DNA of 64,000 nt from Corallium rubrum. Its lineage: Eukaryota > Cnidaria > Anthozoa > Scleralcyonacea > Coralliidae. The translations under genes and the position numbers were made by a program. Shown in pieces: positions 19,799 to 61,741 of the stretch. Location: NCBI GenBank assembly GCA_964035015.1, contig OZ035997.1, positions 13,053,036 through 13,117,035 on the forward strand, written 5' to 3'. The notes below the pieces were generated by a model. It searched no databases and was not told the origin of the DNA. It saw nothing but the letters and a program-made list of their open reading frames with translations. Numbering within the stretch: the stretch's first letter is position 1; each line of letters begins with the position of its first letter.

Positions 19799-19801
<3 letters not shown>

Positions 19802-20735: not shown

Positions 20736-20762
<27 letters not shown>

Positions 20763-28014: not shown

Positions 28015-28315
28015 CTAAGTCATATGTAGTTTTACAATAAGAAAAGTATTTAAAAGGGATAAGACTGCAGCCACAGGTAAAAAATACAACGTAACGGGCA
28101 TTGGCAAGAAAAAACATTATATATGTATTAAAGACTTTATATATGTATTAAAACGTTGATTTGTTTCTGTTCTATTGCCAAAAGGATGTACGTATCCCAA
28201 AAACTCCTTTCTCAAGTCTTTTTGTCAGGAATAATATCAAATCTTTTTTGTCAAGAACTATATTATTTCCAGTGCCACACAATCTTCACCGCGCGTGGTC
28301 CGCCCACACACACAC

Positions 28316-33850: not shown

Positions 33851-35235
33851 GAAGCTATATGCTTGTATAAGTATGATTATTTATACGATTTGTGATCGGG
33901 TTTAGCAATATTTTGTCGCGGCAACATTACGAACCTATTGTAGTAGTTTGAAAGCCCTAAACACTTCTGAGCCACAGATGCGTAAAAAAACACGGTCTTA
34001 TACACCTGGGAAATTAAGATAACTTGAAGTGTATGCATGGTGAAAGTATTTAAAAGCTTTTTCTCTTCCTGTTTAACTTATGTGCTGATTCATTTATAAC
34101 AGCGATTTTAGGGCTTTCAAACTACTACAATAGGTTGTTGGGAAAGAATGCTAATTCATTTTCTGAGGGTTCGAATTTTTTTGATACACACTGTATAACA
34201 CTTTATCTTGGCTTGGACCTTGGCTTGCTTTGTTTTTAAATACATAATTGACAATTATTGCTCAGTGAATGGCAGATAATTATGACACATTTAGCAGCAG
34301 GAAGTCAACCCAGCAGCTTTTTTTACGCAGTATGATAGACTTCCTGTTTCAAAAAAAATAAAGAATATCTCATGCAGTTCTCAATGTTTTTTTCTTCTTT
34401 CGCTGTACTAGGTGACAACTTGACCTTATGAGCACAATATCTTTCGCGATCAGTTCATGACATGCATCGTCGGTTTCAGATTACTTTTGACGGAAATGTT
34501 CAGAAGTTCGTTCGAGGTTCACAAACTTCGTATTGGACTATTTGATTGGCTGCTAGTTGCTAGTAGCCAATCAAATGCCTAGTTCAATACGAACTTCCGA
34601 ACATTTCCGGCAAAAGTAACCTGAAACCGACTGTAATGGAAGACAGCAGTTAATATTCTGCTTACTAAGATAAGCATAAGGAAGCTATATGCTTGTATAA
34701 GTATGGATTGTAATAGTTATTTATACGATTTGTTATCGAGTTTAGCAATATTTTGTCGCGGCAACATTACGATACAGACTCGGTCTATAACAATGATCTT
34801 GGCTTGGACCTTGGAACCTTGGCTTTGTTTTTATAATTATTGCTCAGTGAATGGCAGATAATTATGACACGTTTAGCAGCAGGAAGTCACCCTGCAGCAT
34901 TTTACGCAGTATGATAGATTTCCTGTTTCAAAATAAAGAAAATCTCAATTCTCAATGTTTTTTCTGCTTCTTCCGCTGTACTTGGTGACAACTTGACCTT
35001 ATGAGCACAATATCTTTCGCGATCAGTTCATGACATGCATTTTAAGATGTTACAGTCGGTTTGAGGTAATTACTTTTGACGGAAATGTTCAGAAGTTCGT
35101 TTGGAGGTTCAACAAGTTCGTATTGAACTCAGTTCAATACGAACTTTTGAACATTTCCGGTCAAAAGTAATCTGAAACCGACTGTAATATAATAAGACAG
35201 AAGTTAATATTCTGCTACTAAGATAAGCAGTATAA
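33851..35235. repeat. Tandem duplication (33851-34680 and 34681-35235)
   Basis: Both units open with GAAGCTATATGCTTGTATAA and close with TACTAAGATAAGCA. Each contains a palindrome built on CGGAAATGTTCAGAAGTTCG. Unit 1 also carries part of a mariner-like MITE (33933-34193) whose interior matches elements A and B; unit 2 has only TACAGACTCGGTCTATAA at that place. Confidence 0.8.
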
Positions 35236-35774: not shown

Positions 35775-36041
35775 ATGGGCTCCAAAGGGGCAAGAGTCGT
35801 CATATTACCAGTCTATGTTGTTAACATAGGTCTATTGTACACTCTTTTACTCACGAGTGGCCTTATGCTAGCGTGGGTAACGATTTACCGTCATGAGAAG
35901 AGCATCTCGGAGCTCCAACAGCAGTTGAAGATAAAACAAACTGAAGATGAGAAACAACTTTCGGTTGCAGTTGGTACAAGAGGTGACAAGGGAATAACAG
36001 ATGAAGATGAGAGCGACAAGAATCGAGACAAGAATCAACAG
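35775..36041 (+). CDS. EDA-like: EDA-like exon 1: cytoplasmic tail, membrane anchor, coiled coil
   Basis: ATG in context cacaATGG; donor CAG|gtcagt, phase 0. Five residues (MGSKG) precede a hydrophobic stretch including [11 protein letters not shown]; then [14 protein letters not shown] starts the extracellular stalk. Reading on into the intron gives only five more codons (VSEYA) before a stop. Confidence 0.88.
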
Positions 36042-37385
36042 GTCAGTGAATACGCATAATAAACTGCTCGGCACCATGAACATAGAATTCTTCTATCTGA
36101 CTACAGACCTCAGATTTGGAAACAACAAGCTCCTATAATTAAATCGTGCATGTTGATGCATTTATGATTTACATATATAGTCTACTGTAGCTATAATTTA
36201 TGATGTCTATATGTATCTTCATTTCAAGCTGTCGTTTGAGCCGGAAGACGAGTCCAGCCAACGATCCAGAAGAGATAAAGACTTGGGAAGTCGTCATCAA
36301 GACTACAAAAATACTAGTAAGTATGCTTAAAACAACTGATGGAGCTGAACATCAACATGATGCATCATGTACATAGGATTTTTGTCTGATACTGTTCTCG
36401 TGTAAAAATTATAATATGTCGGCTAACTATCACAATGAAGATACTCTAATTATAGATTCAGATATGGAATAAACAGACTATATAATAGGCTATAATATAT
36501 TTCAAATCTGACGTAACATTTATGAAATATAAGGACGTTGACCTCTCGTTTGCTTAATTAAGTGATATTGTTTGCAAGGTATTCGACAGTTTACTAACCG
36601 TCCTTTTAAAAACACACAAATGTGTGCGACAATGCATTGAGCGGTTATACTCGTCTACGGATTGCTAATTGTCAGCCAACTTGAGTTGGTGCCAAACGAA
36701 GTAGCATGCATGCACTACAGGCTATCCACTCTCACCTGTGCCAATATAGAACATATAAATAATAATCTTCTTGAAGGAATTACTTATGCTTGGTCTAATA
36801 TGGTTGGTTGTTTATACCCATCTTCATAGACATATATATGGATATTATTTAGGTGTAACACCGGAGAATATATACAATGTCTAAAAAAGTAGAGTATGAT
36901 CATTGACATGCGATACCCTGGGAACTGTAGAAAGTGGTCGCAACTAGAACTGGTCACTTACGAGAATTCCTTCTCGTTATATGCGACCACCGACTGAAAT
37001 GGCTGAAGTTGGTCGCTTACGAGAGATTGGACCAGAAAAACACTACGTTTCTATTCTGGCAACCAGCGGAGCCGGAAACAGCAATACTTCATTGTTAGGC
37101 ATTTTATAATCACATTTAATTACTGTATTAAAAGTTATCAAATTGCTTTTTAGCGCAGTTGACCTTACAAGAGCTTAAAAACATGGTCGCTTACGAGAGC
37201 TTTTAGTAACAGAGTTTTAAAATAGCCAAACGGGGTTTCGTGAGGATTGTCGCAACTAGAGCTGGTCACTTACGTGGTCGCAAGGAGAACTTCGACTGTA
37301 TTAATAACATATATTTAAAACTACACTCAAAAAATGGAATTTTGTACACCTATATATCTCTCTCGCGAGCGTAGCGTGATATTTA

Positions 37386-37473
<88 letters not shown>

Positions 37474-40400
37474 AAGTACTTTTCTTTCAACACCTTTGTA
37501 GGTTATAACGTTTGTCATAATAAAAACATATATTATATGCAGGCAAATAACATCCGTAGCGAAATGCGTTATTAATTCTGTATTTTCACACATATCCAAT
37601 CAAGTCGTTGCATACAGTGAAATCTTTTATTCCTTTAAACGTTCAAAACTAGTGTTTTACGTCATTTTACTGTACACATCACTGTATACTGCGCAAGAAC
37701 AGTGTGCATACGTACAGAGGTACAGAACAATTTCGTTTGAATAGCAATGCTCAATGGTACATGAAGTGAACATTCGATGTTTCTTGGTTGACATTGGGAA
37801 AAAGAACTATATCCACAGTTCGTCGGTATAATGTGACCATGCGTGTCAACGTGTCATTACTTCAGTGTCCAACTAGACTGCGCCGCGCCGCCGCAGACAT
37901 CCAACCCTGGGTTTGACTGACGACAAACCGGGTTTGGATGTGTGCGTAGCCTGAGTAGCGGCGCTTGGGGTGGGGGGGGGGGGGATACAGCGACGAGCAA
38001 GCGACAAAGTCGCGAGCGAGTAGAGAGGGAGGAAGAAGGGGGAAGGGGAGGGAAGAAATGGGAAGGGGAGGGAGGAAGCGCCGCTACGCAGGCTAGATGT
38101 GTGCGGCGCAGGCTAGTGTCCGCAGTGTAAATGTGTAATTAATATAACGGAGGACATAGTAATATACCAAATCAGGAAATAGCCAATTTAATTTGCTAAA
38201 ATACACATTAAGAATTTTCAGAATGTTCGTTGATATTTGACTACAGTTTAGCATGAGAATTTTCTACTATGTGTTACATAATAAGTTATATACTTATCTA
38301 TCATTGCAGTCAATAACATAGCTAAAACTGACACAGATTGTTTGCCCTCACTAAAACTGGCAGATTTTTGACCCTGGTCAATTATATAAACAATGGGTCC
38401 AGGATTTTCGTCAATGTTATTTACTTTCCTCAGTAATAATACAACATACTTACGCAATATGTATAACAGTCTTAGGCCCGGCGGAAGCTCTGGAGAAGTG
38501 GAGCGGCCTTCCGCGAAGATTGCTAGGGGGGTCTGGGGGCATGCTCCCCCAGAAAATTTTGAATTTTGCATGCCCCAGAAGATCACTTTAAGAGTGCATA
38601 TGACTATGAGTTTGCAACCTTAGCTTTCCATCTGAGCCTCAGTGACTCAATGGTTAGAGCATCTAACCAGTCATTAGAAGGTTGCAGGTTTGAACCCTGC
38701 CTGGGGCTCAGAAATCTTTTCTGAGTAATTGAGTTTGACGAACGTCCACCAAATGTCTGTTATCGGGCCCGTCAAAATGTTTTTGTTGACATAAGGATTT
38801 TTAAAAATATATAAAAATATATCAAAATTAGCCTCCTCCGCAGGCAACTCTGTGTCAACTGTTCAGCCTCAGGGCAATATTTTGGCTGAGATGCTTGCTA
38901 TTAAATTTCGCCGAGCAGTTCCCGTAGCCTGCGTTCCTCTGCTAATTTTAATGATTATTAAATTTTCAAACAAAAAAAAAAGAATACAACAAATGTCGTG
39001 AATTTTCTCTTTAAATGCCTGAATATCACCGTTGTCTTACCCTATTAATTGTTCGGAAATTCCTCTTAGAACTCTCCGAAAATGCCCTGATGAGTTGTAC
39101 ATGGTATACGTATAATACATGTAGTGCATGTGGTACATTTACGAGATTAAACGTACTACTTAATTTTTTATTCCATTTTTAAAGAAATGGATCGCTTGGT
39201 TGGACTGCTTTATATACTGTAAGCTTGTATTTTATTAAACGTGCAACAATGTATACTAATTTGACGCATATTAATGCGACAATGGCTTTTAGAGTATTAA
39301 AATCCCGTAAAATGAATCAGGATATCCTTTCTATAGTTATTTTTGAAACAATAAACTGTTTTGTCTGTAACTGTCGGGCTTACAGTAACCTTGGGGACAA
39401 AACGCCTTGAGTTGAATTGAAAGTAAAACAACTGCAAATACATATTCCTTTCAAACAACTATTTCACGAGTCTGATGATATATACCGGCAACCTAAAAGA
39501 TAGCCCAGTACAACAGGCAATTTACATCATGTTTCCACAAGTTCCATAGAGATTAACGTTGATGTGACACAGTATAAGTTATAATTACTTAGGACCTTGA
39601 TAAAATCAGTCTCCAGAAATCAAAAGAAACAACTGTTCGTAAGCAATGAAGCAGAAAGCAGTCGACGCCATATTCATTAAATCTCATTATTCCGTTACTT
39701 ACTTTGTTGCTACATCGCAAAACATCGGCACACCTTCGCTTATATTGGTTATGTAATTCGCTCTGAACGTTTCGCGCGCCGATGAATTTGATAGAGGAAA
39801 ACCTATTACGTCACAAAAGTAACAATACGCCAGCCAGACGGTCAGATTTTTACGGGTACATAACGTCTACTGTTGCTATAGCAACGTAGACGAAAAAACC
39901 ACACTTGTTTTGTTAACGGGTACTTTTGAAGACGCTTTGACTATTATTTCTACATGTCTTTTTCCAACTATGTGATTTTATCACACGCCAAGCTCATTGT
40001 TAGTTCTGCGGGAACGCCGTTTTCAGCCGTTGACTGTGGCGAAATTCGAATGGCAAATAAAGCAGAAATGCAAAAATATCTCAAAAACTAGACGTTCGCA
40101 TTACTTTCAGACCGTGATTTTATTAATCTTTGGTTGGCAATTGAACTGCTGAGTCGATAATTCATTTGGTAAAAAATGAGCCAGGTGGATTAATTCGACA
40201 TTTGTTTATTTCTTTTCCAATTATATCGCGGACGGGGATGTGTCCCGCGCGTTTCACGAACCCATGCGAAATCCACGCATTCTTGCCGCGCATGTGCAGA
40301 CAAATTGCCCAGCTGTTACAGGGATCCAGAACTCTTTGCCTCACCTTTTTTTGTTTACTCGTTATCGTTCCAGTTACCACATTTCGACTTACATTGAGTT

Positions 40401-43400
40401 CACTGGTCAGTCCATGCATGCATGGATGTCTTGTAATTTCTCAACTAGATGACTTGTTGACATTTTATGAAAAAAAAAAAGATTCCAGATCTTTTGCGTT
40501 TAGAGTTTGTTTTTCCTGATCTATTTTTGCAGGATCTCGCCGATATTCGCAGGATCGCCAAAAAAAAAGAGGTAAGAAAAAAATATTGAAAAAAGTTTTA
40601 CTTTTGATTACCTCTTACTGTTTTCTTCTGCTTCATCCAGCATGGTTTCAAGTTAAATTATTTGTTTTATTTTGTAGGGTCTAGAAAAAATAAACCGAAA
40701 CGCAGTAAGATATTCGAGATTTATATAGTAATTTTATATTAAAAATTGCACATGACAAATACAGGATTCATTTAAATGCAAGTTTGATAAAACTATTTTT
40801 AGAGTGTAGGTTAGTTTCAGGCTTAGGTATTCTAATGCTAGATTTCCACTAGGCGCAAAATATCACTCGCTCGACTTTTCTATTGTACAAATTGAATAGT
40901 TTTTTTACTTCGTTCCACATGGAAACGCGCAAGACAAAAGAAAGTCGAGCACACGACATTTTACGCCAAGTCGAAATCCAGCTTAAGGGCTGTTTACATG
41001 GAAGGTGGGGCGGGACGTTGAACAGATCGCATCGCTACTATATTTTCCTTTATTTATCTCATTTCGTTTATATGAAGAATGTGTTTGCCTGCGTTTTTGT
41101 CCCGTCCCACCTAACTGGGATCCCGGTTTCCTCAAGCGGGATCCCGGTTTGAGAGGGACAATTTTCGCCATATAAATGCTCCGTCCCGCCTAACCGGGAC
41201 GATATGACGGATACCGTTCCGAGTATTTATTTTGATTCTTAAGCTGTTTCTTCGATACAAATGAGTGCATGATAACAGCTAGTAGGAGGTATATTTCTCT
41301 GTTATTCTGTGGTTTTTACAACTTTCTAGCTGTGTTGTGAAACGTCCCGATCGCAACTGTCCCACCTGAAAACATATAACCTCATGTAAACGCGAGGTGA
41401 ATTAAATCCAGCCCTCTTATAGGAAATAATATTTCCTACTAGAAAGAATATTATTTGTTGTGTAATCTATAGACAACACAATTCTCCAGAGCGCTTTCAG
41501 GCTTACGTTGATGAAAAGGTAAAATTTTATGCATCAATGGGCAAACACCTCATTATTGTTAATGATGTTAACATTGATATCCTCAAAATTGGCTATTGTA
41601 ATTATGCATATAATTTATTCATTTATCTCAAAAATATTTTCTAAGCCATGGATAACAAAAGGAATAAGACAATCTATTAAAATTAAAAACAAACTTTTTT
41701 ATTCTAATGATACTTCAGAATATAAAATATATAGAAATGAAATTCTTAAACTTATACACGTGATAGTAAAAAACTCTTACCTTATAACCTTATTACCGCT
41801 AAATTACCATGATAATTATAATTATAACAATAGTGAGTCTGTTTTGTCTTTATCCCAGTGGTACCAACTGAAATTGAACTGGAACTAGTATCAATGCTAT
41901 CTAATACATCACATGGTCTGTTTTCTTGTCCAGTGCGTGTTCTGAAATGTGCGAAAAAGATCTTGAGTAAAGTATTATCTGAAATCATTAACATTTCTAT
42001 CCAACAAGGTATATATGCAAAAAAGCTAAAAATTGCTAAAATAATTCCAATCAAAGTTTTAAAACCGAAGATGAGACAGATCCGAAAAACTATCGTCGGA
42101 TATCTCGGCTCTTATCTGTCTTTAATAAGATTTTTGAAAAACTTATGTGTAAACGACTCAATTCGTATTTAAAAAAAATAAACATATTTTGTTGTCCCAA
42201 TATGGTTTTCGTGAAAAACACTCTACACAACATGCAATTTTAGACATAATCAACGGCATTCAGAATAACATGGACAAGCAGAATGATGTTCTCTTGTGGT
42301 ATATTTATCGATTTAAAAAAGGCATTCGATACCGTTGACCACAATATACTTCTAGGTAAATTACATCACTATGGTGTAAGAGGCATAATCTCAAAAATCG
42401 ATCATACACAGCAAAATCCTGATTCTTATTTTAAGAAAAAAAATACTTGTTTTAAGCAAACAATTGCTTAAAACAAGTAAGATTGTTCTTGTCAGTATAG
42501 TAAGAATAATATTCTTACCAAGAATCTTGTCAAGAATCTTGTCAAGAATATTATTCTTACCTAGAATTTTTCGAGAATAATTTTACTTAAAAGAAGAAAT
42601 AATATTCTCGTGCAATTCTTGTTTCAAGCAAAAAATTACTTGTTTTAAGTAACATATTGCTTAAAACAAGCAAAATAATTCTTGTCAGTATAGTAAGAAT
42701 ATTATTCTAGACTAGAATTTCATAAAGAATGTTTTTACTTAAAATGAGTAAAAATAGTCAAGTAAAATTTTCTGGCACTGATTCTAGAATGGATTCTTGT
42801 TTTAAGAAACAAGAAAATTCTTATTTTAAGAAAAAATTAAATGTACATGTACTGAGTTGCATTATTTATTAGTTATTTCCATGTGTTCTTAAGAGCACTA
42901 AAGTTACTATATACTTCACGTAAATGACAAATTTTTTTAATGTAGACATGTTTTGGGAACTTATGCCATCTTCAATAGAATATAAGAATAATTATTTAAA
43001 TATTTATCAAAATAATTCTTAAATATCTTGTACTGGCATAAGTTTACCGAAACATGTCTACAGAAAGTCAAATTTAAGAATACTAACAGTATAAATTATA
43101 TAAAAAACATGCAGACATTATACATACGAATGTTCTAACATTCTCCACGAGAGCAATACTTTTGCAAGTCATTCAGGGTTTTGGTAACATCCAATTTGAA
43201 ATCACACCAGGATGACACTTGTCACCAAAGATTAGGTCTTGCAACTTTCACAGCAACATCCACCATCCTTGAAGATACAGGTCAGTACAGTGTATGCCAA
43301 ATCCAATTACTAGAATATTGCCAATAATGTCACAACAGCTTCAAACATTTTGCTTTTCTTGAACATACACAGGATTTGCCTTCCACAACCAGACACCATA

Positions 43401-44611
43401 AGACCAGGGGTAAAGCTGGACCACTTACACAGCCACCTGTCAAGTTGCTCATCATCTTAACATTACAAAAAGTCAAAAGTAATATTAAAATAAAGGTTTA
43501 ACTTAAGTGGGAAGCACAGATAAAAGCGTTAGTGGTAAACACATATGGCAGGTCTAAATTGCAGCCTGCAAACTGGAGAAATTAAGGCCAGCAAACAAAT
43601 GATACTGTAGGTAATGTGAGGCTGTAATAGAATTCTTGGTTGGTTGACCAAAATCTTATCTTTCACTAAATAGAACTGTTTAAAATGTATTTTATTGTGC
43701 AACATACATGTATGCAAATACAGTAGGCCCTGCATATTTTTTATTCATATGCCTGACTGAGTCATTTCTTTTTTCTTGATATTTAGCATTGGGTGGTTAA
43801 TTCATGAGCTATTAAAATCTCTCCATGATTAACCAAAAGCCAAAATCTATTTGCCCAAGTAAAACTTTGGTTGCTCCGGGGCAATCAAGCAACAAGTAAC
43901 CCAGCATAGGCTCAATTTTACCTGACCCAGTTATAATCACACATTAATAAACAAAATGATCAGTCCCTGACAGATAGAAGTGATACTCCAGTCTATCATA
44001 TAACAAGTTACATACTTAAGTCCAGTTATAAGTGTAACTTAAATTATGGAAACCTTTTTAGTCTTCAATTTTTAAAGAAAAAGCTCCATGGTGTGAAAAT
44101 TCTTGAATAAAGATCTAATAATCTTTCCACACTAGATATTTTAACTAAAATGTGGTAACAATACATGTAGCACCTCTAATTAAAATGTGATTTCATCACT
44201 ATGATTATTATAACCTCTTTATTGAGAAATGTGCTGATACTGGTAGGATAAAGTTTGCATGTACAAGCCTACACAGCACATCTCAGTCCATGTACATGTT
44301 TCTTAATTTTTTCAGCATATGTGAATGCCCCCAGGATTAACTAATGAATTTCATGTTAGGCAGCTATTTGTTGCATATATATTAGTTTCTCATCCAGGAC
44401 TTTACCAAAAGTTCACGCGGGAGGGCAGCCATTACCATTAACCCATTATTGGGGCAGTACAGTACATTGAAAAGCAGAACTAAGTACCGCAGTATGTTAA
44501 AAATACAGGCATATGACATGCACATGAAAAAACATGACCACACCAAATGACACCCAAGCTCCTTTGCGATTTCTGAGCCGAGATTTCCTCATGGTTGTGT
44601 TAATAATAATA

Positions 44612-44642
<31 letters not shown>

Positions 44643-47600
44643 AACTTGAGTTGGGCTGGAATAGTTGGGAAAAATGTGAGTGGGAAAATAAGAAACTAAT
44701 ATGCAACAAATAGTGACCTTAATTGATTAAAGTTTTAGTATGAAAACTATATATTGCACTACTAGACACATAATTTTTTAACAAATTCTTAATCCAAAAC
44801 AGTTGAAAGCTTCAATTTTGAACCATCATTTGTAAACGTGTGCATGAATGTGATAACTACAGAACTGTTAAGAAATAAAACTTTACATTAGATACTAACC
44901 ACTAAATCAATTGATATCTTTTCACACACGTCTAAACTCAAAGAACAATGTTCTCTTTATTTATTTTGTTCTGTCATGAATTGGGGTTCCAGTACTATCA
45001 TCATTTCCAGTCTAAGGTATACGATTTTGGTCTTGATAATCCTTTAATAAACTAAGACAAAGATTTTGTTAGTATACAGCCAAACACATACACTGTGTAT
45101 CCCCTTCTTGGTTTGCACCGATACATTGCAAAATTAAATAATTATAGTAAGTTTAGCCTGGCACTAGATGAAGCTTCATGCAAACCATGTGACTACATTT
45201 AGCTACTTAAAGATTGTTGTAACCTTGTGTGTAACTATGATCAGCCTGTATCAGGCAAGTGCTTCTGAAACAATACAAATATATCAGAAGAAAAGCCTTA
45301 TTTTTTTAACTCTCAACAATACCATGGATTAACTGCTGAACATTTGTTTAATTAACTCTGAACATGCAAACAAAAATGTAACATGTTTAATATTCTTTGC
45401 AGTCTGGTTTATAGCATACAATCCATATTGTAATAAGTTTGCCCCCAGATTCCAAACAAAGAACATTGCTGTCTAGGAATATCTAGTTGTCAAGCTGTGT
45501 TGTTAACACAGTAGAGCCTTTTCTTAAATTAAATATCGAAACATAACAGTTGTATGCATCAAAAGGGGAACCAAATGGTCGACTTTTAGTAAATGAATTT
45601 TACCTATGCATTGTTATGTATTCAAAATTGCCGCCGTTAATAGTTGATCAACACAAACAATTTGTCAATTCCCAAAACAAACCATAAGTAACTCCTTCAA
45701 TTGTAATACTTATAAACTAAAAAAATAAACATATTTTGTAAGGATCAAACGGCAAATCTTTGTAAGAACATTTCTATTCCGTAGCGACTAGCGAATAAAT
45801 AAATGAAGCTACATACATTTGCTGAATCACCAATCAGTATACAAAATTGCTGATTTACATGTAAGAATCTATGACTTACCTTCAATAATGTGATCGCATC
45901 CATCGTCTGTATACGTCTAGCGAAGAACCATTTACAAAACAAGCAATAATTACAAAGCCATAATGACAAACAATCGCCAACGGCCAACGAACTTCGAAAA
46001 CACGCCGTCACCGGGTTCCCGCGTCATCATGGGATAATTATCCCGCGTTAGCCTCGCGTGGTCTTAATAAGGACATTGCAAATCAATATTTCTATCTATT
46101 TTCTATCTTTTCTACTTATATTATGGGCTAGAATATTTAGGTCAATTGACAGTTTTGTGTCTAATCAAATAAATAGTGTGTAGCACGCTGCACTAAATAT
46201 CTGTTGAATAGTTAAGATATTTTCATGCTCTAGAACAAGTGAATAACAAAATCATCGTTGCTATAAATTTCAGAAATTTATTCTTGGTTTATTTCTGTAT
46301 ATCATTGTACGCATGTGATTAGAGAATGTTCTCCTTCGTTTAAGTAAAATGGATTATTTGTTTATTTATGACAAGAAAATATTTTCTTTCTTTAAGTAAA
46401 ATCAATTTTTGGTAAGAAAGTATTGACTGCCCCTCGACGCTGCCCCGGTCCCCCTGGAAGCGCGGTGCGTATTTTTTGACTTTTCTTGTTTTAAGTAAAA
46501 TCAATTCTTGCTTTATTCGTGGTAAGAAAATTTGTTCTTGTTTTAAGTAAAACAAATTCTCGTTTTATTCTTGGTTAGAAAATATTTTCTTGTTTTAAGC
46601 AAAATTAATTCTTAGTTTAATATTGCCAAAAAATATTTTCTTGCTTTAAGTGAAATCAATTCTTGGTTTATTCTTGCCAAAAAATATTTTCTTGTTTTAA
46701 GTAAAATCAATTCTTGGTTTATTCTTGTTAAGAAAATATTTTCTTGTTTTAAGTAAATCAATTCTTGGTTTATTCTTGTCAAGAAAATATTTTCTTGTTT
46801 TAAGTAAGATATATTCTTGGTTAGAAATAATTTTCTTGTTTTAAGTAAAATTAGTTCTAGGCAAGAACATTTTTCTTATTTTAAGAAAATTATTGCTTAA
46901 AATGAGAATCAATGTTCTAGGTAAGAATTCTCAATTTTGCTGTGTAGACTACACAAATTGAAAACAATGTATCTGGTAAGAAAAATACTTTGTTTGGTGT
47001 TCCACAAGGATCAGTTCTTGGGCCTCTCGCTTTTTTAATTTATATAAATGACTTCACGTATATATTAAGATTTTTCCTCTTTGCGGATGATACCAATTTA
47101 TTATATATGCTCATAAAAGCTTAAAAACACTTGAAACTGTAGTGAACAGAGAAATTAAAAATGCCTCACTGGCTCATTGCTAACAGACTGACAATAAACA
47201 TTAAAAAGCCTAATTTTTTAATTTTCCGTCCTTTCCAAAAACGAATAAATTCTCCAATACCTACAAATCACTTGAATGCAAAAATTATATTAAATATCTT
47301 GGAGACCTTATATTGATGCTCATTTAAGTTGGAGACATATCGATTATATTGCTTTAAAAATTAGTAAAACTGTAGGTATTATTGCAAAACTCAGACATTT
47401 TGTACCATTGCATACATTAGTTAACATATATACAGATCACTTGTTCAGCCTTATCTTACATAATATATGGTATAGTTGCATGGGGACGGGCTGCAAAATC
47501 ATTTATAAATAAACTGTTAATCCTTCAAAAGCGTGCCCTGAGACTTATGTATTTTAAACAGAATCGAGAACATCCTATTCCCTTGTTTACAATCACTGGT

Positions 47601-47965
47601 ATACTTCCTGTTCACATGTTATATTTTAAAGAAACAGCTAATATTATGTATGATATATCAATCGATACGGCACCAAATAAAATAAAAACGTTATGCCGTA
47701 GGGTATAACAAGTGTGTATAATTACAATACTAGATCAGCCTCCACAGGCAACTTTTCTATGACTTATTCTAGACTTGAAATATTAAAACGATCATTCTCG
47801 AGAACTGGCCCGCTTGTTTGGAATTGTATTCCAACATACGTGCGAAATGAACCAAAAAATATATTCAAAAAGAAATTGCATCAAATTGCTTGAATCATTA
47901 CTAGAAAATGAAGATAATTAACTTGACTTGCCAACAATAATTGGGAAAATGCCTAAATAATAATA

Positions 47966-48037
<72 letters not shown>

Positions 48038-51000
48038 AAAAAACTAATCTTTAATATTGGAAATTTAATATTGGTACCTTCAGCATTGTATTTATAATAG
48101 TTTTCATAGAATAAATTGTAGGGGGGGGGGGGGGGGTGAGAATACTCCCATGTAACTTCGTGGAAGTGTCCACAATTTCTATAATTATTATTAACTAGTC
48201 CTTCAGTACAATTCTAATCTAGACTTTTGACTTCGTTCTTTGATAAATATTACCTTGTGCTTTGATAAATATTATTATGTGTTTTGTCATTGCCCGCCTC
48301 GACTAGCAAATTGCTATCTGCGGGTAATGTGAATTGTAGTTATATTATTTTGTTCTGAATAAAAATATAATTGTTGTAAAACGGCTAGCCTTCCTAGGAG
48401 CGCCGAACCCTTCCATGTAAACACCTCTTATGTGTCTATTACTTCGACTCTTTGTCCAACATAAGCAATATACTCTATATTACCATAGTTAATATAACAT
48501 ATACGTGGTTTGGAAGCTCTATTGTCTTTCAACATAAGCATGGTCATGTTGAACTGACAATGGAGTTCCTTATATGGAAGTAAATTCTATGGACACGTGA
48601 CAATGAAGCACCACAACACGTGACGATGAAGCAACTCACTAATTAAACCCAAGCGTTGCTATTGGATGACTGCTTCATTATACAAAAAATGCAATACCGT
48701 GAAATTTCACAAATTTCCATAAACTTGAACAAAAACATAAAACAATCACTTTGGACGAGTTTCCAAACTATGTATACGTTCTATTAACTATGATATTACT
48801 TAGTAAACCGCGGGATGCACCTCGGACTCGTTCGGACCTTACTAGCTTTTCAAACATTGCTAATTACACGAATTCTCGATCTGTTAATTAAATGATAATA
48901 TAAAAAACGCGTTGGTCATGTGCATACATTGTCACTTTTCTTTAAAAACAATTTCTTGAGATCGTTTCTTTTTTAAGTTTGTTCTTTTATAATTATTGCA
49001 GAATGTCGCCAATGTTCGAATGGTGATAAAGGAGATAAAGGAGATAAGGGAGATAAGGGTGAGAAATGAAAATTTATATATTAGTTTATCTTTTAATTAT
49101 ACTTTTCTAGTAATTTAATGTGCTTCTTCAAGCAAGATTCTGCCTTGCGATCATTTGAGTATAGCCGGACCACTTGGCTACGACTCTGCCTAGAAAGGGA
49201 CCCTAAAGTATAATCTAGCCCACGCAGGCCCATGTATGGCCATGCAGTCGCGTCATTGCATGCATGCTATATCGGTTTAAGCTTGGATGAATCTTAGCTT
49301 TGAATTTCACATGAGCCAAACGCAAAACTTCGAATTAAGCTTAATTCTGCGCGAAGCTCGTCTTTTGTCTCAACTATATTTTAGCTGTGATTGCTGTTGG
49401 ATCAACTGCTATATCGACTTCCCCGTAACCTAATCTAACTATATAACAATAATACATAAACATGCAGAGTTTAGTCCTAATAATTGAAATAGGTTTGGTT
49501 TACGTGAGTGCAACGTGTGACTCGGGTCTTACAGTATACTTGATTATTTATTCTTCTTAAACTGCTTTTGTGAAAAAGGTAACGATGGCGATAGAGGACC
49601 CCCTGGCTATTATGGGCAAAATGGCCAACATGGCCAACCAGGCCAACCAGGACATCGAGGAAGTAAGGGAGAACGGGGAGAAGATGGTCCCAAAGGGGAA
49701 CCAGGAAAATATGGCGAAAAAGGTGATACTGGCACAACTGGAAGTAAAGGCACTAAAGGTACTTTTTTATATAACACCCCAGTATTAAATGTCAAACTCT
49801 TGTTGGCTAATAGTTATAGGTCATCACGTACCTATACTAAGGCGGCCTCTGCTTGGTTTAGATAACCTAACCCAACACCTTCCCCTAGGAAACGAATTGA
49901 TAATTGGACAATGTGATTGGTTACTTATAGCCAATCAGAAAACTCGTTCATATTAGGTAGGCCTTTACTGCATACAGACGCACAATTTACGTCACGAAAT
50001 CCGCAAAACCAATCAGAACAGCTGTCTTCTAATAATCAGCCAATCGATCAGGCTGCTCCATTTATATATTAATAATTCATGACGTATAAAAGAGGAATTT
50101 TATCTTGTACGTTATCGGAATATTTTACAACAATTACAACAAACACCACTAGCCCTATAACAAGCACTAGTGGCAACATCACCACCACCACCAACACGTC
50201 TAGCACCAGAAACTGCACCGCCAACATACCAGAAACAGATACTGCCATTTGCAAGCCTCCATTTTTTCACGTTTGTTTACGTTTGCGGAATGTTGCAAGT
50301 TTCGCCAGAAAACGTTTGAAGATTAAACATTACGGCAATCAATTGTGCCATTACTTTGACAGGTTTTTCAAAATCACGGCGCAAGTTGATTGGTTTGTTG
50401 TTTTTACTGTTCAACGTTTTCCGGTGAAACAGTCGTTTCAGTATTCTTCAGGTAATAAAACATGAGCTTCCGAGTTTATCTAATGCATACATACAAATGT
50501 TCATTTGTATTGATTGCTATTCTGAAATACAAAGTGTTTTTGCTGAGAAAATCAAACGAAAAGTTTATGTAAATCAGGACGATTCTCTTGCTGATTTACA
50601 GATATATTAATTCCTTTGAATTTTCCTCAAAAATTATTAAAGGTGACGTACAGTCCGTTCTGCGCTTGACCGCAATGTTGTCCCCAAAACATGACATTCG
50701 TAGATAATTACATGAAGTACTCAGCTCAATGTAAACCGTTAGGAACAACATGGCAGAAAACCAAGCGATTCGGCGAGGATATCTCCTCGGATTTCTTCTA
50801 TTTCTCCTGAAAATGTTTTGTTTTGGGTACAAGTAATGAATGGGAACCAAGAAGAACTTCCAATCTTGAATAAGGTATTAGTATTTTTTTTGTAAATAAA
50901 GATGTAAACATTAGTTTAGTACATGCGCAAAACGGACTGTACGTCACCTTTAATATAACAATAGAGTTGATGTTTGCGGGCATAAATATGTTTTGGCCCG

Positions 51001-54000
51001 ACTCAGGCTCATTTTAGCCCGAGCCGAAGGCGAGGGTTAAAATTAGCTCTTAAGGGCCCAAAACATATTTATGCCCAAGAAACACGCAACATTTGTCATC
51101 AAAATAATCTTTGCTCCAAAGTATTAACAAGAGAAGTATACAATTCCGTAAACAGCAAATTTTGGCCTTATATATTTTATATATAAACTCGAACCGAATA
51201 TAAGCATCCGTATTCCTCGAAAATCCTAGAGATAAGAATGATTTTTGCCGCTGAGAAAATCAAACAAAAGTTTATATAAAACTGGAAGATTTTTGTATCA
51301 ACAGTTTCAACATTAATTTATTTTGAGTTTTTGTCATGTACTATTAATGCTATTACAAGTAAATTGAAATTAATCAACAAACAATACTTCATAGTTCATT
51401 CTTATTTTAAGGTGAAGATAGAATTCCTGGGCTGTCTATATATAAGAACGCAGATAGTAATGTTTTAAAAACATTAATGACTCATGAAGAAAACACAAAG
51501 AAATCAGTATCATGTCGGTGGTTTTATACCTGATAAAACTTATTGACGTCAGGAAAAATACTAAAAGACATTTTATATAAAGTAGAGGACTGTAGCTCTG
51601 CAGCCAATCATGCAGGGAAGATTTGTAACAGTCCACCACTTGATTTATAGTAAGAAATAGAAAATAGCCGCCTGTGTTTATATAGCTTGATGCAAACACG
51701 AGAGTGAGTTGGGAGAATTCGAAAGTTTAGCTAGAGCCGTAGGCGAGGGTTTACGTAAGTACTTTCGAATTCTCCCAAACTCACTCGAGTGTTTGGATCA
51801 GGTTATATAAACACAGGGAAACTATTTTCTATTTCTTTTATGAAATAAGCCTAAGAAATTTGCCATGACATCACAACCGTGTTTGCATAGGCTGATATAA
51901 ACACGGTAATTACTAATCAAAGTGTGCGTAAGACATAACCTATTTTATAGTAAATAATATTAACCGTAGAGACCTCACTCTCTGTTATTAAGTAGTTGTG
52001 ATCACAGCTTAGATAAATGAGATGTCATCTGCATGATTTAAAATTAATCAACAAACAACAATAATTCATTCTTATTTTAAGGTGAAGATGGTATTCCCGG
52101 AAAAGAAGGTGCGTATATTTAACAATTATTCAACGAACCTGAGTTAGCTATTATTATAACTAAGCATGCAGATAGTTAACGAGGCCAAGTAGAGTTGACT
52201 ATCGCTTATGGACAAGACCAACTATTCGAAGAAAATATTTTTTAAGACAAAAAAATGAAACCTCCTAGTGAAAACAAAAGATTGCCATTGTTTTGCGACG
52301 GACAATTAACTCCTTTGGTTGCCTAGTATAGTGGTCAGTGCGAGTAGAGTAGCTTAGCCAATCAGAAGGCAGGATTCGTATTAGCCCAATCTAGCTTAGC
52401 CAATCAGAAGGCAGGATTCGTAGTAGTCCAATCTTCAGGTTATTAAGTATAGTTACCAAGTTACGATTAGAACTTAACTACATAAGTTAAAATTATTCAA
52501 CAAGTAACAATCCATTATAATTTTCAAGGTGAAAATGGTATTCCCGGCGGAAAAGGACCAAAAGGTGCGTATATTTATTATCCCATGATGCAGCCACATT
52601 TCATTGTTCTAACAGACGCGTTAAACATTTATTCAACTGATTAGTATGCACAGTGTGATAAATGGTTTTCTCACTCTTTTGAATGGAAAAGAGAGTGATA
52701 ATCACTTATCACACCATTTATCGCATACTAATTATATTTAACCATATGCAATGTCTATTTAACTATAATTATAATCAATGCTTATTATAGATAATCGCAT
52801 GAGGCTGGGAAAATTAAGGTTTAATTTCACGAGTGTTTTCAAAATTTTATCAATGTCAACCAAAACACCTGTCTTGTGTTTTAGGTGACCAGGGACCCGA
52901 AGGACAAGCAATAATGGTTCGTAAAAAGATTTCTTGCTTTTTTTAATTTAAGTTTTTAGATGATTGTATTTTCATGGTGGAATTACCATGAGACAATGAA
53001 CATGTAAGATCCATTAACTAACATGGCAGTATCATCGACCGGATAATTTTGAAGTGAAAAATAACTGGTACAACATGCAATAAACAAATAAATAAATTAT
53101 TGATTCCTAATAATAAATAACTTCTACAATACAAGGAAAAGATAACTTTAGAATAGAATACTTTAGTTTTAGTGTCTTTTTGGAATCAAATTAACTGACT
53201 AGCTAACATTAAATAAACAAATGTCAAGATGTTACGGTGAATATTTGTCAGTCGCATTAAATTTAATCGAAAGACAAATTGAGATTTATGAAATTCATGG
53301 GCGGATTCAGGATTTTGGAAAAGGGAGGGCCCATCGTGTTGTCAACCGAGGAGTGCCGTAGCGGACATGCGAAGCCGGATCCGCGTTAAGGCGGATTTCC
53401 AGTCCTCACACGAAGCAACTCGCAGCTCATTGCCAGCACTCGCAAGCTCGCTGCGAGTATTTTAGCGCTCGTGACAGATAGTTGGAAATTTTGAACTATT
53501 TTTTACTCGCGACAAGTACTCGCAGTAAATAAACCAATCAAAACAAATTATGTCAACATTTCAAACTCGTTAGTAATTCATGAGGCAAACTGCACAAAGG
53601 AAATCATTACCGTGTCGATGGTTAATTTGCATGGACATTGAAGGAAGAAATTACATAAATTTTTCTCTTATTAAAATACCGATTTGTTTGAGATGCTATA
53701 TCAAACACTCAGAAGAGTGCTTCATCAGGATATCTAAACACCTCGAAGTTTGTTAAAAAAAACGTGGTTATCGCTTCACCAGTCTTGAAACCCCGCGAGT
53801 TATTGCAACGAGTTGCTTGTGGTGGTAATACAGTGGAAACTGGGCGAGTATTCGCAGCGAGCTGCGAGTTGCTTCGTGCAAGGACTGGATCCAAATCCGC
53901 CTTCATGGAAACTCACAAGACAAAAGAAAAAAGACGAGCGCGCGATATTTTACGCCTCGTGGAAATCCAGCTTTAGTAAGGGTCAGGAGGCACGAACCCG

Positions 54001-56331
54001 AAAAATGTTAAACATCTAGGGTCTCTGAAATGACGTTTCCTCACAGCTTTAAATATCAGTTAAATTTCAAGATAACTCTCTATGATGTGGCATAGCCAAA
54101 ATCTCGAGTTTGATGACTCTCTCGATATCCTTAAAATTAAATTTTATTGACTGTGGTCTGGGCAACCTTTCAAGATTGTTGCAATGTTGAATTCATCCCC
54201 TGTATTTAATTTTGTTTTTGCCTTCAAACGTTATGGGATAATAATTCGTCTTTGCGCATGTGTCTTTCCCTGCTGTCAGAGGTCTCTCTATAGGAAAGAG
54301 ACCTCTGCAAACATCCGACACTTTGTTTGAGGTAGCCACCGTCCATGATCTTGGACGTGTCAAACCAGTTTTGAAAACAGGTTTGGTGCAACACTCATTC
54401 TGATTGGCTACTGAGCGTGCTTACGCAATGACCAACAAGTTGTTTACGTGGTGGCGCTAGAGTGTAAAAATTAGCTTTCCTGAGCCAGCTGAACTTCTGT
54501 AACCTTAGTTAGTTTCCGTAAAGAAATAAGAATACTTTGTCACAGAGTCAGTATAAAGTTGTTTACAGTGCTTGGGAAGTTACAAGACGACTCACAGAGC
54601 TGGTGAAACACTCGGCTATTGCCTCGTGATGTTCACGCATATCTCGTGTTTCTGAACTTCGTTGCCAAGGTAACTTCGCGCATGCACGACTGGAAAAGTG
54701 TCGGAAGTTTGCAGAGGTCTCTCACTTGTAGAGACCTCTGCCAGCAGGGAACATGTGTCCATTCTTTTGTTTATTTCCTCGGTGACCCAATTCTCAAGCC
54801 TCGGGGTTGTGGAATGCCCTCGGGCCTACTGGACTTCCAAAAGCCCTCCCTCGGCTTTCGGAGACATTTAATCACTATTATCAAATCATTAATAATTCAT
54901 AAGGAAAATTCAAAAGAAATTAATGTTTAACTAGATGTTTGTAAATACTGTTAAAACATTGATTAATAAAACATCAATGTTTTATCAAAGTTATTAGACC
55001 GTAGCGCCGTTATTGGATCCAAGGCCATCTTGTTGCATAAGATCAAAACTGTGACCCTCATGGAAATGCGCTATGGCCGAAGGCGCGATCTACGAAAATG
55101 TGCCGGAAAGTTGCATAGTCATGAGTTTTATACATAGTTATGGCTATAATGTCGATGAACGCACGATATTATCATAATGGTTATATAATTGGTTTTTCGT
55201 TTAGTATTCTGAATCAGCTCATATTGTTGGCTCGGAGGAATCAGTGGTGTCGTCTCCGGCTGCAGGGGAAGGTAAGGATTCAATATATTGCATTAAAATA
55301 TTTTTGTTTTGTGACCATACATTCACCACTTTGTAACACGTTCGCAAGTAGACTAAACGATTAAAGAGTTGCGATGGTAATTTGGTATATATTTATATTA
55401 GACTCCGCCGTGAGGTTATGTTTTCACCCTAGACTGTCTGTCTGTCACCATCTCTGTGTCACTATCATTGTCACCGTCACTGCTACGCCTTGTCCCTGTC
55501 ACCGTCACTGCCAATATCACTGTCCTTGTCCCCATACTTTCACCATCACTGTCAGTGTCATTGTCTCAGCTGTCACCATCACTGTCCCTGTTACTATGTC
55601 TCTTACCATCAATGACATTGTGACTGTCACCATCACTCTGTCTCTCACTGTCACCATCACCATCACTGTCATCAATTTCACCGTCACTGTCACCATCACT
55701 GTCACTATCACTGCCTCTGTCCCCATACTATCATGTACTGTCACTGTTCTGTCACGGTCACTCCCACCGTCATCGTCATTATTATTGCTGCGCGATTTTT
55801 ATCCTCCTGACGCATGCGATATCGAAAGGATTGACTTAGGAATGTATTGGACCATCTGCAAATCTATATTACGGTATATTCACTCAAGTCATTCACTCAA
55901 TCGCATGCGTCATCATGAGCAACCTCGCAAAAATCGCCAGTGTAGACGAGCCTTAAGATTCGTTTGTTTATTTCCCCCCAGAAATTTATACAATGACTTC
56001 ATGGACGTTACAACACCGATCAGGGACTATGTCTTATAAAAATGGTCATCTTACTGTGGGTATTGACGGAGTTTATTTCATCTACAGTCAAATATTTTAC
56101 TGCGATGGCAACAGCTCGTATACAGGTTACGATGTGTATATTGATGACCGTAAAGCACTCAAAGTAATAAGTAGTATTATCAGTAAACAAAGAAAATACC
56201 AAACCCAGTATACAAGCGGTATTTTTAGGATTAATAAAGGGCAAAGAATATCTATTGCAACTTCTATCATAAGGAAATACTACTTGAACAAGAGTTCTTC
56301 GTTCTTTGGAGCGTTTATGTTGCACCGTTAA
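35775..56331 (+). CDS. EDA-like: Ectodysplasin-like TNF ligand with collagen stalk, complete, 11 exons
   Basis: The exons are 35775-36041, 36229-36316, 40533-40571, 40678-40704, 49002-49058, 49579-49758, 52082-52108, 52529-52564, 52885-52916, 55205-55271 and 55982-56331. Together they give 1170 nt, 389 codons plus stop, in one frame. The order is: a type II membrane segment (about residues 8-38), a short coiled coil, RSRR furin-type sites at 101-104 and 119-122, a polybasic stretch to 140, Gly at every third position from 148 to 247 (34 triplets), and a TNF homology domain from about 254. The domain has AHIVG as first strand, [17 protein letters not shown] (297-313, a full TNF-family signature match) and FFGAFML near the end. 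Human EDA has the same architecture and nearly the same length. The expected role is a secreted trimeric signal for a TNF receptor. Whether it is the orthologue of EDA or another collagenous cnidarian TNF is inference. Confidence 0.87.
36229..36316 (+). CDS. EDA-like: EDA-like exon 2: first furin-type site
   Basis: Acceptor ...atttcaag, donor ACT A|gtaagt, phase 1. It encodes [22 protein letters not shown] fits the R-X-R/K-R proprotein convertase pattern. Confidence 0.8.
37391..37468. repeat. (AT)n microsatellite
   Basis: About 39 TA units inside EDA-like intron 2. Confidence 0.95.
38260..38480 (-). pseudogene. Retroelement-type ORF remnant with 2A-like peptide
   Basis: The minus frame reads [18 protein letters not shown] and then [17 protein letters not shown]. 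It differs from the 2A consensus D(V/I)ExNPGP in having Asn for Asp and Asp for Glu, but NPGP and the Leu-rich lead-in are kept. 2A-like peptides occur at the N-terminus of some marine invertebrate retroelement ORFs. The frame continues without a family match. Confidence 0.45.
38634..38790 (+). mobile_element. tRNA-derived SINE (family B), intact cloverleaf head
   Basis: 38634-38709 folds as a cloverleaf: acceptor GAGCCTC/GGGGCTC, anticodon stem TCTAA/TTAGA with loop CCAGTCA, T arm GCAGG-TTTGAAC-CCTGC. Position 33 is C rather than T, and the SINE body GAGTTTGACGAACGTCCACC follows, so it is not called a tRNA gene. Confidence 0.7.
40533..40571 (+). CDS. EDA-like: EDA-like micro-exon 3: second RSRR and polybasic stretch
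   Basis: 39 nt, acceptor ...tatttttgcag, donor GAG|gtaaga, phase 1 on both sides. It reads [13 protein letters not shown]. It is short enough to be missed by gene finders; support is the clean splice sites and retained frame. Confidence 0.65.
40678..40704 (+). CDS. EDA-like: EDA-like micro-exon 4: basic stalk
   Basis: 27 nt, acceptor ...attttgtag, donor CGCA|gtaaga, phase 1 on both sides. It reads GSRKNKPKR. Being phase-symmetric, it could be skipped without a frameshift. Confidence 0.6.
40842..40985. mobile_element. MITE of the TTTCCACTAGGCG family
   Basis: The ends GCTAGATTTCCACTAGGCG and CGAAATCCAGC resemble the element at 899-1048. It contains AGACAAAAGAAAGTCGAGC. A related half copy lies at 53906-53976. 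Confidence 0.5.
40987..41400. mobile_element. Degenerate GGGCTGTTTACATGG MITE
   Basis: The left end GGGCTGTTTACATGGAAGG and a right end CTCATGTAAACGCGAG are present, with CCCACCTAACTGGGATCCCGG inside. The right terminus is eroded. Confidence 0.45.
41440..42406 (+). mobile_element. LINE, 5' part (endonuclease end and RT start), degenerate
   Basis: Translated pieces in different frames show the endonuclease end (VNDVNIDIL), a [18 protein letters not shown] linker, [30 protein letters not shown] and [20 protein letters not shown], which are reverse-transcriptase motifs. Several frameshifts and stops make it inactive. It stops abruptly at a TA dinucleotide where a CACTA-like element is inserted; the rest continues at 46947. 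Clade is probably CR1/Jockey-like. Confidence 0.75.
42407..46944. mobile_element. CACTA-like element inserted in the LINE, 4538 bp
   Basis: The ends are CACAGCAAAAT and its exact complement, with TA on both sides. The outer 450 bp at the left and 650 bp at the right are arrays of TTCTTGTTTTAAGTAAAAT-like units in both orientations, the subterminal repeat structure also seen at 11107-13405. The core has (TAA)n near 44595-44643. On the minus strand, MDAITLLK is followed by gtaagt (45875-45905) downstream of a GC-richer block, like a first exon. No transposase was recognised. Confidence 0.7.
46947..47964 (+). mobile_element. LINE, 3' part (RT catalytic motif to tail)
   Basis: It resumes with [20 protein letters not shown] and [15 protein letters not shown], then [12 protein letters not shown], the F/YxDD catalytic motif of reverse transcriptase. 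Further frames contain ASLAHC, YLGD-like and RALRLMYF-like RT thumb sequence with frameshifts. It ends at a (TAAA)n tail. Confidence 0.75.
47965..48035. repeat. (AAAT)n tail of the LINE
   Basis: About 17 TAAA units directly after the LINE 3' end. A G run follows at 48121-48136. Confidence 0.9.
48484..48792. mobile_element. Palindromic MITE, second complete CATAGTTAATA member
   Basis: The ends CATAGTTAATATAACATATA and CTATTAACTATG invert each other; interior GAAGCAATCATCCAATAGCA-type sequence is inverted relative to 28978-29281. Confidence 0.65.
49002..49058 (+). CDS. EDA-like: EDA-like exon 5: Cys pair and first Gly-X-Y triplets
   Basis: Acceptor ...aattattgcag, donor AAGG|gtgaga, phase 1 on both sides. 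It reads CRQCSN then four GDK triplets. The two cysteines just before the collagen run may link trimer chains (inference). Confidence 0.82.
49579..49758 (+). CDS. EDA-like: EDA-like exon 6: main collagen exon
   Basis: 180 nt, 20 complete Gly-X-Y triplets beginning [13 protein letters not shown] and ending GSKGTKG. The acceptor ...gtgaaaaag is weak in pyrimidines; the donor is AAAG|gtactt. Confidence 0.87.
50079..50465 (+). other. Unrecognised 128-codon open frame in EDA-like intron 6
   Basis: A Thr/Asn-rich start is followed by [20 protein letters not shown] and a basic stretch. It has no known family, no upstream signals and lies inside an intron on the same strand. Probably chance or a repeat-borne frame. 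Confidence 0.15.
50641..50949. mobile_element. TTAA-target MITE, AGGTGACGTACAGTCCG ends
   Basis: The ends AGGTGACGTACAGTCCG are exact inverted copies, with TTAA at 50637-50640 and 50950-50953. Related to the element at 56332-56568. Confidence 0.7.
50966..51100. repeat. Hairpin with agcccgagccgaaggcgaggg core
   Basis: The arms GGGCATAAATATGTTTTGG and CCAAAACATATTTATGCCC are exact complements. Confidence 0.75.
51412..51450 (+). pseudogene. Dead copy of a collagen micro-exon
   Basis: The acceptor and preceding intron (AATTAATCAACAAACAAT... TTCATTCTTATTTTAAG) match those of exon 7. The sequence begins GEDRIPG instead of GEDGIPG, breaking the Gly rule, and has no donor at the right place. It is not part of the assembled transcript. 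Confidence 0.6.
51653..51838. repeat. Hairpin with agagccgtaggcgaggg core
   Basis: The long arms include AGAAATAGAAAATAG, CTGTGTTTATAT, GAGTGAGTTGGGAGAATTCG and their complements; about 185 bp in total. Confidence 0.75.
52082..52108 (+). CDS. EDA-like: EDA-like collagen micro-exon 7
   Basis: 27 nt reading GEDGIPGKE; acceptor ...tcttattttaag, donor GAAG|gtgcgt, phase 1 on both sides. Confidence 0.8.
52348..52435. repeat. 44 bp unit repeated twice
   Basis: TAGCTTAGCCAATCAGAAGG and the following GCAGGATTCGTA are repeated head to tail in EDA-like intron 7. Confidence 0.8.
52529..52564 (+). CDS. EDA-like: EDA-like collagen micro-exon 8
   Basis: 36 nt reading [12 protein letters not shown]; acceptor ...aattttcaag, donor AAAG|gtgcgt. 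Exon and donor are close to exon 7, indicating exon duplication. Confidence 0.8.
52885..52916 (+). CDS. EDA-like: EDA-like exon 9: end of collagen run
   Basis: Acceptor ...cttgtgttttag; [11 protein letters not shown]; donor ATG|gttcgt, changing phase from 1 to 0 as the collagen ends. Confidence 0.75.
52917..55204. other. EDA-like intron 9, MITE remnants
   Basis: A hAT-type left end (GGGCGGATTCAGGATTTTGG) lies near 53301. An inverted-repeat element with AAGGCGGATTTCCAGTCCT ends spans 53385-53905. Inverted hairpins with CAGAGGTCTCT lie at 54250-54330 and 54700-54770. No coding was recognised. Confidence 0.5.
55205..55271 (+). CDS. EDA-like: EDA-like exon 10: first strand of TNF domain
   Basis: Acceptor ...gtttttcgtttag, donor GAAG|gtaagg, phases 0 and 1. 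It reads [25 protein letters not shown] is typical of strand A in TNF ligands. Confidence 0.8.
55430..55770. repeat. Degenerate (TCACTGTCACCA)n simple repeat
   Basis: About 340 bp of irregular CACTGTCACC/CATCACTGTC units in EDA-like intron 10. A 221-codon frame over 55374-56039 is caused by this repeat. Confidence 0.85.
55982..56331 (+). CDS. EDA-like: EDA-like exon 11: TNF homology domain
   Basis: Acceptor ...tttatttccccccag. Trp281 opens the conserved core; the TNF signature and FFGAFML are both present, with sequons at Asn317 and Asn376. The stop TAA at 56329-56331 is also part of a transposon target site. Confidence 0.9.
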
Positions 56332-61483: not shown

Positions 61484-61741
61484 ATGGGCTCCAAAGGGAC
61501 GAGATACATCGCATTACCAGTCTATGTCGTTCATATTGGTCTATTGTACGCTCTTTTACTCACGAGTGGCCTGATGCTGGCGTGGGTAACGATTTATCGT
61601 CATGAGAAGAGCATCTCGGAGCTCAGGCAACTGTTGAAAATAAAACAAACAACTTACGATCTGAAACATTTTTCGGCTGCAAATGGTAAAAGAGGTGACC
61701 AAGAAAGATTGTACGAAGATGCCAACAGTGACGTACTAAAG
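61484..61741 (+). CDS. EDA-like: EDA-like paralogue, exon 1 (rest outside window)
   Basis: 86 codons, donor AAG|gtttgc in phase 0, as in gene 1. In the first 56 residues 48 are identical to gene 1, including [21 protein letters not shown]. Beyond that the stalk diverges (HFSAANGKRGDQERLYEDANSDVLK). In gene 1 the next exon follows within 200 bp; I could not find a counterpart of its RSRR exon in 61742-64000, so the rest is either further downstream or lost. It could be a functional tandem copy or a 5' fragment. Confidence 0.7.

Follow-up and report, generated by a model that had tools for sequence, protein, structure and literature searches.

Do eleven exons scattered over a stretch of animal DNA encode one complete ligand with the build of vertebrate ectodysplasin (EDA), and does such a gene stand alone? 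The first-pass annotation of the window (the whole stretch analysed, 64,000 bases, C1:13053036-13117035) had assembled a ligand of this kind. Our analysis took in the window, a 224-kb region that was examined exon by exon and the genome of 474 Mb in 312 contigs, and a full exon-by-exon model was made for gene 1 only, the gene that lies in the window. Gene 1 is very probably a working gene encoding a predicted type II membrane ligand of the TNF superfamily with the collagen-TNF (EDA) build, and it is the first of eight tandem paralogues. A single gene of this kind is to be expected because relatives in the sea anemone and Hydra are already known, and we regard the eight-gene array with swapped parts as the more interesting point.

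The eleven exons, all on the + strand, join to 1170 nt, or 390 codons with the stop (389 aa), and contain no in-frame stop or frame break. Every junction of the model has an AG acceptor, a GT donor and consistent phases, so that the annotated assembly of eleven splice-bounded pieces into 390 codons including the stop is borne out. Exon 1 (35775..36041) carries the start codon, a short predicted cytosolic N-terminus, the putative membrane anchor and the stalk, ends on a phase 0 donor and has a paralogue exon at 61484; no match with E below 0.3 to a second copy of exon 1 or exon 11 was found upstream within the window. Hydrophobic windows extend over aa 6-38, the best 19-residue window being aa 8-26 with a mean hydropathy of 2.32, and the flanking charge is +3 on the N-terminal side and 0 on the C-terminal side; hydropathy and charge, the only two measures used here, fit a type II anchor; a predicted cytosolic tail of only ~7 residues counts against it. 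Between the anchor and the collagen lie three predicted furin-type sites: RSRR at aa 101-104 in the charged stalk of exon 2 (36229..36316), a second RSRR at aa 119-122 in exon 3 (40533..40571, 39 nt), the first codon of which is split by the junction between exons 2 and 3, and KPKR at aa 137-140 in the basic exon 4 (40678..40704, 27 nt). Exon 5 (49002..49058) contains a CRQC motif and begins the Gly-X-Y run, which continues through exon 6 (49579..49758), the main collagen exon with 20 triplets and the Pfam Collagen match, exon 7 (52082..52108, 27 nt) and exon 8 (52529..52564, 36 nt), and the final triplets stand in exon 9 (52885..52916, phase 1-0). Exon 10 (55205..55271, phase 0-1), with the motif SESAHIVG, encodes the N-terminal portion of the TNF homology domain, and exon 11 (55982..56331) supplies the remainder of the domain and the stop. 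For exons 3 and 4 homology gave no support, and splice signs and frame are what argues for them; short, basic and frame-neutral, they are the shakiest and least certain part of the model. Taken together, the splice signals and the open frame confirm gene 1 as a predicted gene that is sound and was correctly read from the raw sequence.

Could such an arrangement of exons arise by chance? The Gly-X-Y run amounts to 34 triplets (aa 148-249), as had been annotated, and because it sits in exons 5-9 it crosses four junctions and not the five that had been counted. As a control, 60 simulated 64-kb windows were drawn from a first-order Markov model and read on both strands. Runs of at least 4 triplets occurred in these with a mean of 0.13 and a maximum of 1, and runs of at least 5 did not occur; the + strand of the real window holds four runs of at least 4 (21, 5, 5 and 4 triplets) and the - strand none. 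All four start inside model exons, some extending one triplet beyond the donor. Runs of exactly 3 triplets are about as frequent as chance predicts, and for runs of at least 3 the simulated mean was 2.45 and the maximum 6, against 10 in the window. When exon-like stretches were sought (AG to GT, phase 1-1, Gly-X-Y, with at least 8/15 pyrimidines preceding the acceptor), the simulations gave none, and the window gave exons 6, 7 and 8 together with alternatives nested in exon 6. The annotated view that chance agreement is improbable is upheld both by this control and by the copies of exons 1, 10 and 11 in the array. Parts of the collagen region are duplicates of one another: exon 7 is a duplicate of exon 8, and to these two belongs a decayed copy of exon 7 that includes the acceptor flank (51364..51430, + strand, outside the model). 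Their alignment scores are 113 and 99, whereas shuffled sequences reached at most 37 and 44. A comparison of exon 8 with exon 9 scored 30, below a shuffled maximum of 32, and gave no hint of mutual duplication. A 42-nt direct duplication (95%) lies in the intron that separates exon 7 from exon 8, at window positions 52350-52434.

The protein falls into recognised domains. Pfam searches on the whole product returned Collagen (PF01391, 3.3e-16, 59.3 bits, above the cut-off) and TNF (PF00229, 2e-14, 54 bits, cut-off 23), and the TNF part alone matched the TNF profile at 1.7e-15 with 57.6 bits against the same cut-off, a significant match that confirms the TNF signature annotated downstream of the collagen. 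Among PDB sequences the best single-domain match is EDA-A2 (1rj8) at 51.9 bits, followed by EDA-A1 at 47; lower TNF ligands among the matches listed are Eiger (31.5), TRAIL (up to 29.9), lymphotoxin (24.9) and BAFF (23.5 bits). The top line, the APRIL-BAFF-BAFF fusion 4zch at 56.2 bits, owes its score to the sum of three domains, each worth 15 to 18 bits. The order of anchor, furin-type sites, collagen and TNF domain, which the annotation had likened to that of vertebrate EDA, is thus found as described, with EDA-A2 as best single-domain match. Seven NCBIfam families were found, all of them under their cut-offs, the top three being bacterial collagen-like adhesins. Pattern searches for relatives gave 10 matches in viral contigs and 133 in prokaryote genome contigs, of which none was confirmed, as expected because the gene is an animal one. 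AlphaFold2 run with a single sequence on exon 11 alone reached a mean pLDDT of 38.7 and its model was not used; because that model was poor, the fold is assigned from sequence only.

Which animal is this? Six MutS_V matches fall on contig C129, including a + strand pair separated by 18,967 bases, which gives a mitochondrial unit of ~18.97 kb. Within the first 20 kb of the contig, at 62.8% AT, are a mutS with an open frame of 865 codons (MutS_V, 1.8e-32) and further frames for COX1, NAD5, NAD6, cytochrome b and a second Proton_antipo_M protein. Mitochondrial mutS is unique to Octocorallia, with Alcyonacea mitochondrial genomes of 18,947 +/- 329 bases and 62.9% AT, according to the available text of PMC10261974. 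Because the mitochondrial contig carries mutS, the animal is an octocoral, which bears out and sharpens the earlier impression of a cnidarian. The genome also has one match to the GFP family (E 1.7e-8). Over the 97 kb of C129, mutS matches occur on both strands, the cox1 and cob frames run opposite to mutS, and so, by eye, does nad1; the contig most likely consists of repeated mitochondrial units and is itself a product of the assembly.

Searching the genome with PF00229 gave at least 12 TNF matches, eight of which lie at 13.109-13.230 Mb of C1, all on the + strand; two more are on other parts of C1 and a further two on C200. The eight form an array of genes on one strand over 141,362 bases, in which gene 1 stands first. 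The order of anchor exon, ESAHIVG-type exon and TNF exon is repeated in all eight, given sites that were partly chosen by hand. For the anchor exons, a scan for ATG-initiated frames of 70 codons or more that include a hydrophobic window yielded 14 candidates; those of genes 1 and 2 were assigned by homology and six more by an alike stalk (of the QQE..NLR type), and six misfits were left out. Exon 10 of gene 1 matched each of the other seven genes weakly in tblastn (E 0.02 to 1), every time beside an acceptor, and two further weak matches inside the array were excluded. When the exon 10 equivalent and the TNF exon are joined, all eight genes give an open domain in which exon 10 starts in phase 0 and the junction of the two exons is in phase 1; here donors were picked from a few candidates each, and the acceptor of gene 8, which first gave another phase, was moved 10 bases upstream. 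Exon 1 of gene 2 (window 61484..61741, + strand) is a 73% identical copy of that of gene 1, and its TNF exon (C1:13126751-13127103, + strand) lies beyond the window. The + strand of the array region contains 24 Gly-X-Y runs of at least 4 triplets, all within genes 1, 3, 4, 5, 7 and 8 and 22 of them directly following AG; the - strand has 6. In gene 2 no run of this length was found, but part of its DNA reads N, and gene 6 has none, only runs of 3 without clear splice sites. The four other TNF-domain loci of the genome are of another type (C1:50.80 Mb, - strand; C1:71.30 Mb, + strand; C200:65 kb and 68 kb, - strand), and in the 10 kb examined a Gly-X-Y run lies upstream of both C1 loci, with no run of at least 4 for the two on C200.

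Are these copies maintained, and how have they changed? All 21 array pairs with a computable dS (7 of the 28 pairs were not computable) have a lower dN than dS in the TNF exon, which indicates purifying selection. For exon 1 of genes 1 and 2, dN is 0.25 and dS 0.45 over 85 codons (0.22/0.38 over the whole exon in an alternative alignment); the first 48 codons give 0.09 and 0.29, those after codon 48 give 0.49 and 0.80 and those after codon 60 give 0.68 and 0.76, showing that the 3' part of the exon is under little constraint between these genes, a point against the favoured reading. The exon 1 pair differs by a dS of ~0.4 versus ~1.7 for the TNF exon pair of the same two genes, and this contrast is another sign pointing to exchange or homogenisation at the 5' end. 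Discordance is also seen in gene 4, whose exon 1 protein is 87% identical to that of gene 5 (dS 0.20) and 32% to that of gene 3, and whose TNF domain is 75% identical to that of gene 3 (dS 0.29) and 39% to that of gene 5 (dS 1.48). In tree-topology tests the TNF-domain data reject a pairing of gene 4 with gene 5; the exon 1 data favour it and leave gene 3 with gene 4 unrejected at the 5% level (AU p 0.058). Gene 4 also has stretches that match regions around the collagen exons of genes 1, 5 and 8. Gene 4 looks like a mosaic, with a gene 5-type anchor exon and a gene 3-type TNF domain, and a deletion joining neighbours, gene conversion or unequal crossing-over would all fit the pattern; two partial genes within its 28.6-kb span would fit as well. 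As a tentative and rather speculative extension, the array as a whole may recombine, such that unequal crossing-over, gene conversion or deletion moves anchor/stalk, collagen and TNF modules from one neighbour to another and builds a lineage-specific set of EDA-like ligands. If so, the recombined ligands might vary in how they are released, how large their oligomers are and which receptors they choose, and mixed trimers would be possible.

These observations bear on three other explanations of gene 1. The repeats are many and one decayed exon copy lies within the gene, as a pseudogene or an assembly product might show; 390 codons free of stops and frame breaks, a TNF-exon dN lower than dS in every computed pair and other array genes with like exons and phases argue against decay and make that explanation highly improbable. 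A protein of the C1q/collagen type within the C1q-TNF superfamily, rather than a TNF-superfamily ligand, would likewise be built of collagen and then a jelly-roll domain, and the C1q profile does give a weak match (E 0.049). However, that match reaches 14.3 bits, under its cut-off of 23.7, versus 57.6 bits for TNF, and furin-type sites and an N-terminal anchor are present; C1q membership was rejected by the profile scores and has hardly any probability left. It is quite possible, though on balance not what we favour, that both ends of the model are right while the symmetric exons 3-8 are alternatively spliced, giving isoforms that vary in furin-type sites and collagen length. Every exon from 3 to 8 is phase 1-1 with a length divisible by three, introns of 4.2, 8.3 and 2.3 kb lie in this region, and the exon 4 donor is weak, its score being equalled or beaten by 39% of the GT dinucleotides of the window (15% for the middling donor of exon 9). 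Yet collagen genes are commonly built of symmetric exons anyway.

The remainder of the window holds several further features. An open frame at 24154-24942 (+ strand) matches positions 61-260 of the 260 in the profile of the rhodopsin-type GPCR domain 7tm_1 (E 2.8e-17) and probably represents the final exon of a receptor gene. A tRNA-Ser-like repeat, with five tRNA-Ser calls and copies 95-99% alike, occurs at 19800-20744 and 27676-28023 and forms a large inverted repeat at 19.84-20.74 kb; it looks like a tRNA-derived SINE. The 8.3-kb intron 4 contains a reverse-transcriptase fragment at 46979-47110 (RVT_1, E 9.7e-5, under the cut-off), probably the remains of a LINE, and 6.6 tandem copies of a 51-nt unit at 46481-46822. 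An imperfect palindrome (78% over 152 columns) stands at 35047-35190, ~0.6 kb upstream of the start codon, and other palindromes of the window may be small DNA transposons.

How might the product of gene 1 act? Gene structure, domains, array and TNF-exon selection were determined by sequence analysis, and from these we infer topology, cutting, oligomers, receptor binding and tissue role. The N-terminal anchor would hold the ligand in the membrane, and a furin-type protease would cleave the basic stalk at RSRR, RSRR and KPKR. The freed part would then form a trimer via its TNF domain, the collagen rod of 34 triplets might gather trimers into higher oligomers, and such an oligomer could cluster TNF receptors, some perhaps with death domains. 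By analogy with EDA, its role in the tissue may be to pattern epithelia or direct cell differentiation rather than to kill cells. EDA itself is type II and furin-cut, and its collagen part is thought to bundle trimers, as stated in the available parts of PMC10815684, PMC10643535 and PMC9918506. Because the same parts stand in the same order, the same mode of action is the best guess for the octocoral protein. Receptors for it in the same genome are plausible, since profile searches gave at least 6 TNFR_c6 and at least 80 Death matches; two TNFR_c6 and one Death match lie on the same strand at 1.888-1.905 Mb of C25, arranged as one gene would be, and mark a candidate receptor gene.

An octocoral EDA-type ligand now has a gene structure that can be tested, and the collagen-TNF build is seen expanded to an eight-gene array in this animal. 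Vertebrate ectodysplasin patterns skin appendages, and arrays in animals that lack skin appendages therefore help to ask what the first role of the ligand was, with epithelial patterning, differentiation and immunity as candidates. Our literature search found no octocoral TNF-ligand array, although one may still be in print. The sections available of PMC7674686 describe similarity to EDA for multiple invertebrate TNF ligands, and those of PMC12843592 describe large TNF ligand sets in other animals. Counter to an early origin, PMC10029157 cites, in its available text, a study according to which the EDA pathway arose in jawless fishes.

How does the array compare with known TNF ligands? EDA homologues of cnidarians are reported in PMC13367198, which in its accessible part names two expressed Nematostella proteins (XP_048588342.1 and XP_048588379.1), cites Hydra HyTNF/HyTNFR and mentions no tandem array. 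Drosophila Eiger is a TNF ligand and the best single-domain match after EDA (31.5 bits), with 27% identity over 97 columns, and we know of no collagen in it. BAFF and APRIL are alignable across the TNF domain (BAFF 23% identical over 111 columns, APRIL 25% over 103), and to our knowledge they too have no collagen. Both (TNFSF13B/13) are TNF ligands of the EDA cluster, in the portion available of PMC7674686. A tree of 16 sequences (the eight array members, the four other TNF loci of the genome, EDA, Eiger, BAFF and APRIL) splits the array from all the others (SH-aLRT 96.8, UFBoot 92) and groups the four other loci with BAFF/APRIL (94.4/93); the placements of EDA and Eiger are weakly supported.

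Is gene 1 then the one-to-one orthologue of vertebrate EDA, with the role of EDA? The identical order of predicted type II anchor, furin-type site, collagen and TNF domain, a length of 389 aa close to the 391 aa given for EDA1 in the accessible text of PMC10815684, and EDA-A2 as the best single-domain PDB match speak for it. Against it, the array members stand together and apart from EDA (96.8/92), with the place of EDA weak in this tree, and none of the eight has, at the corresponding columns, the three cysteines of the aligned EDA segment. We consider such orthology unlikely; the EDA-like relation of the first-pass annotation holds by domains and their order. The remaining comparison is one of build. 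Identity to the EDA segment is 30% over 109 columns. The collagen of EDA is bi-partite, as far as PMC10815684 is available, whereas gene 1 has an uninterrupted run. The gene 1 sequon NKS is two residues off the EDA sequon NMS in the alignment, and most of the eight members are without it. Gene 1 is without the Val-Glu motif of A1, its loop is one residue longer than that of A2 and one shorter than that of A1, and the place matching the A1/A2 splice choice (Val307-Glu308) falls inside exon 11, where the model has no intron. Unlike EDA, gene 1 has a TNF domain split over two exons and a cytosolic tail predicted to be very short, and, again unlike EDA, the octocoral carries its ligand in eight tandem copies.
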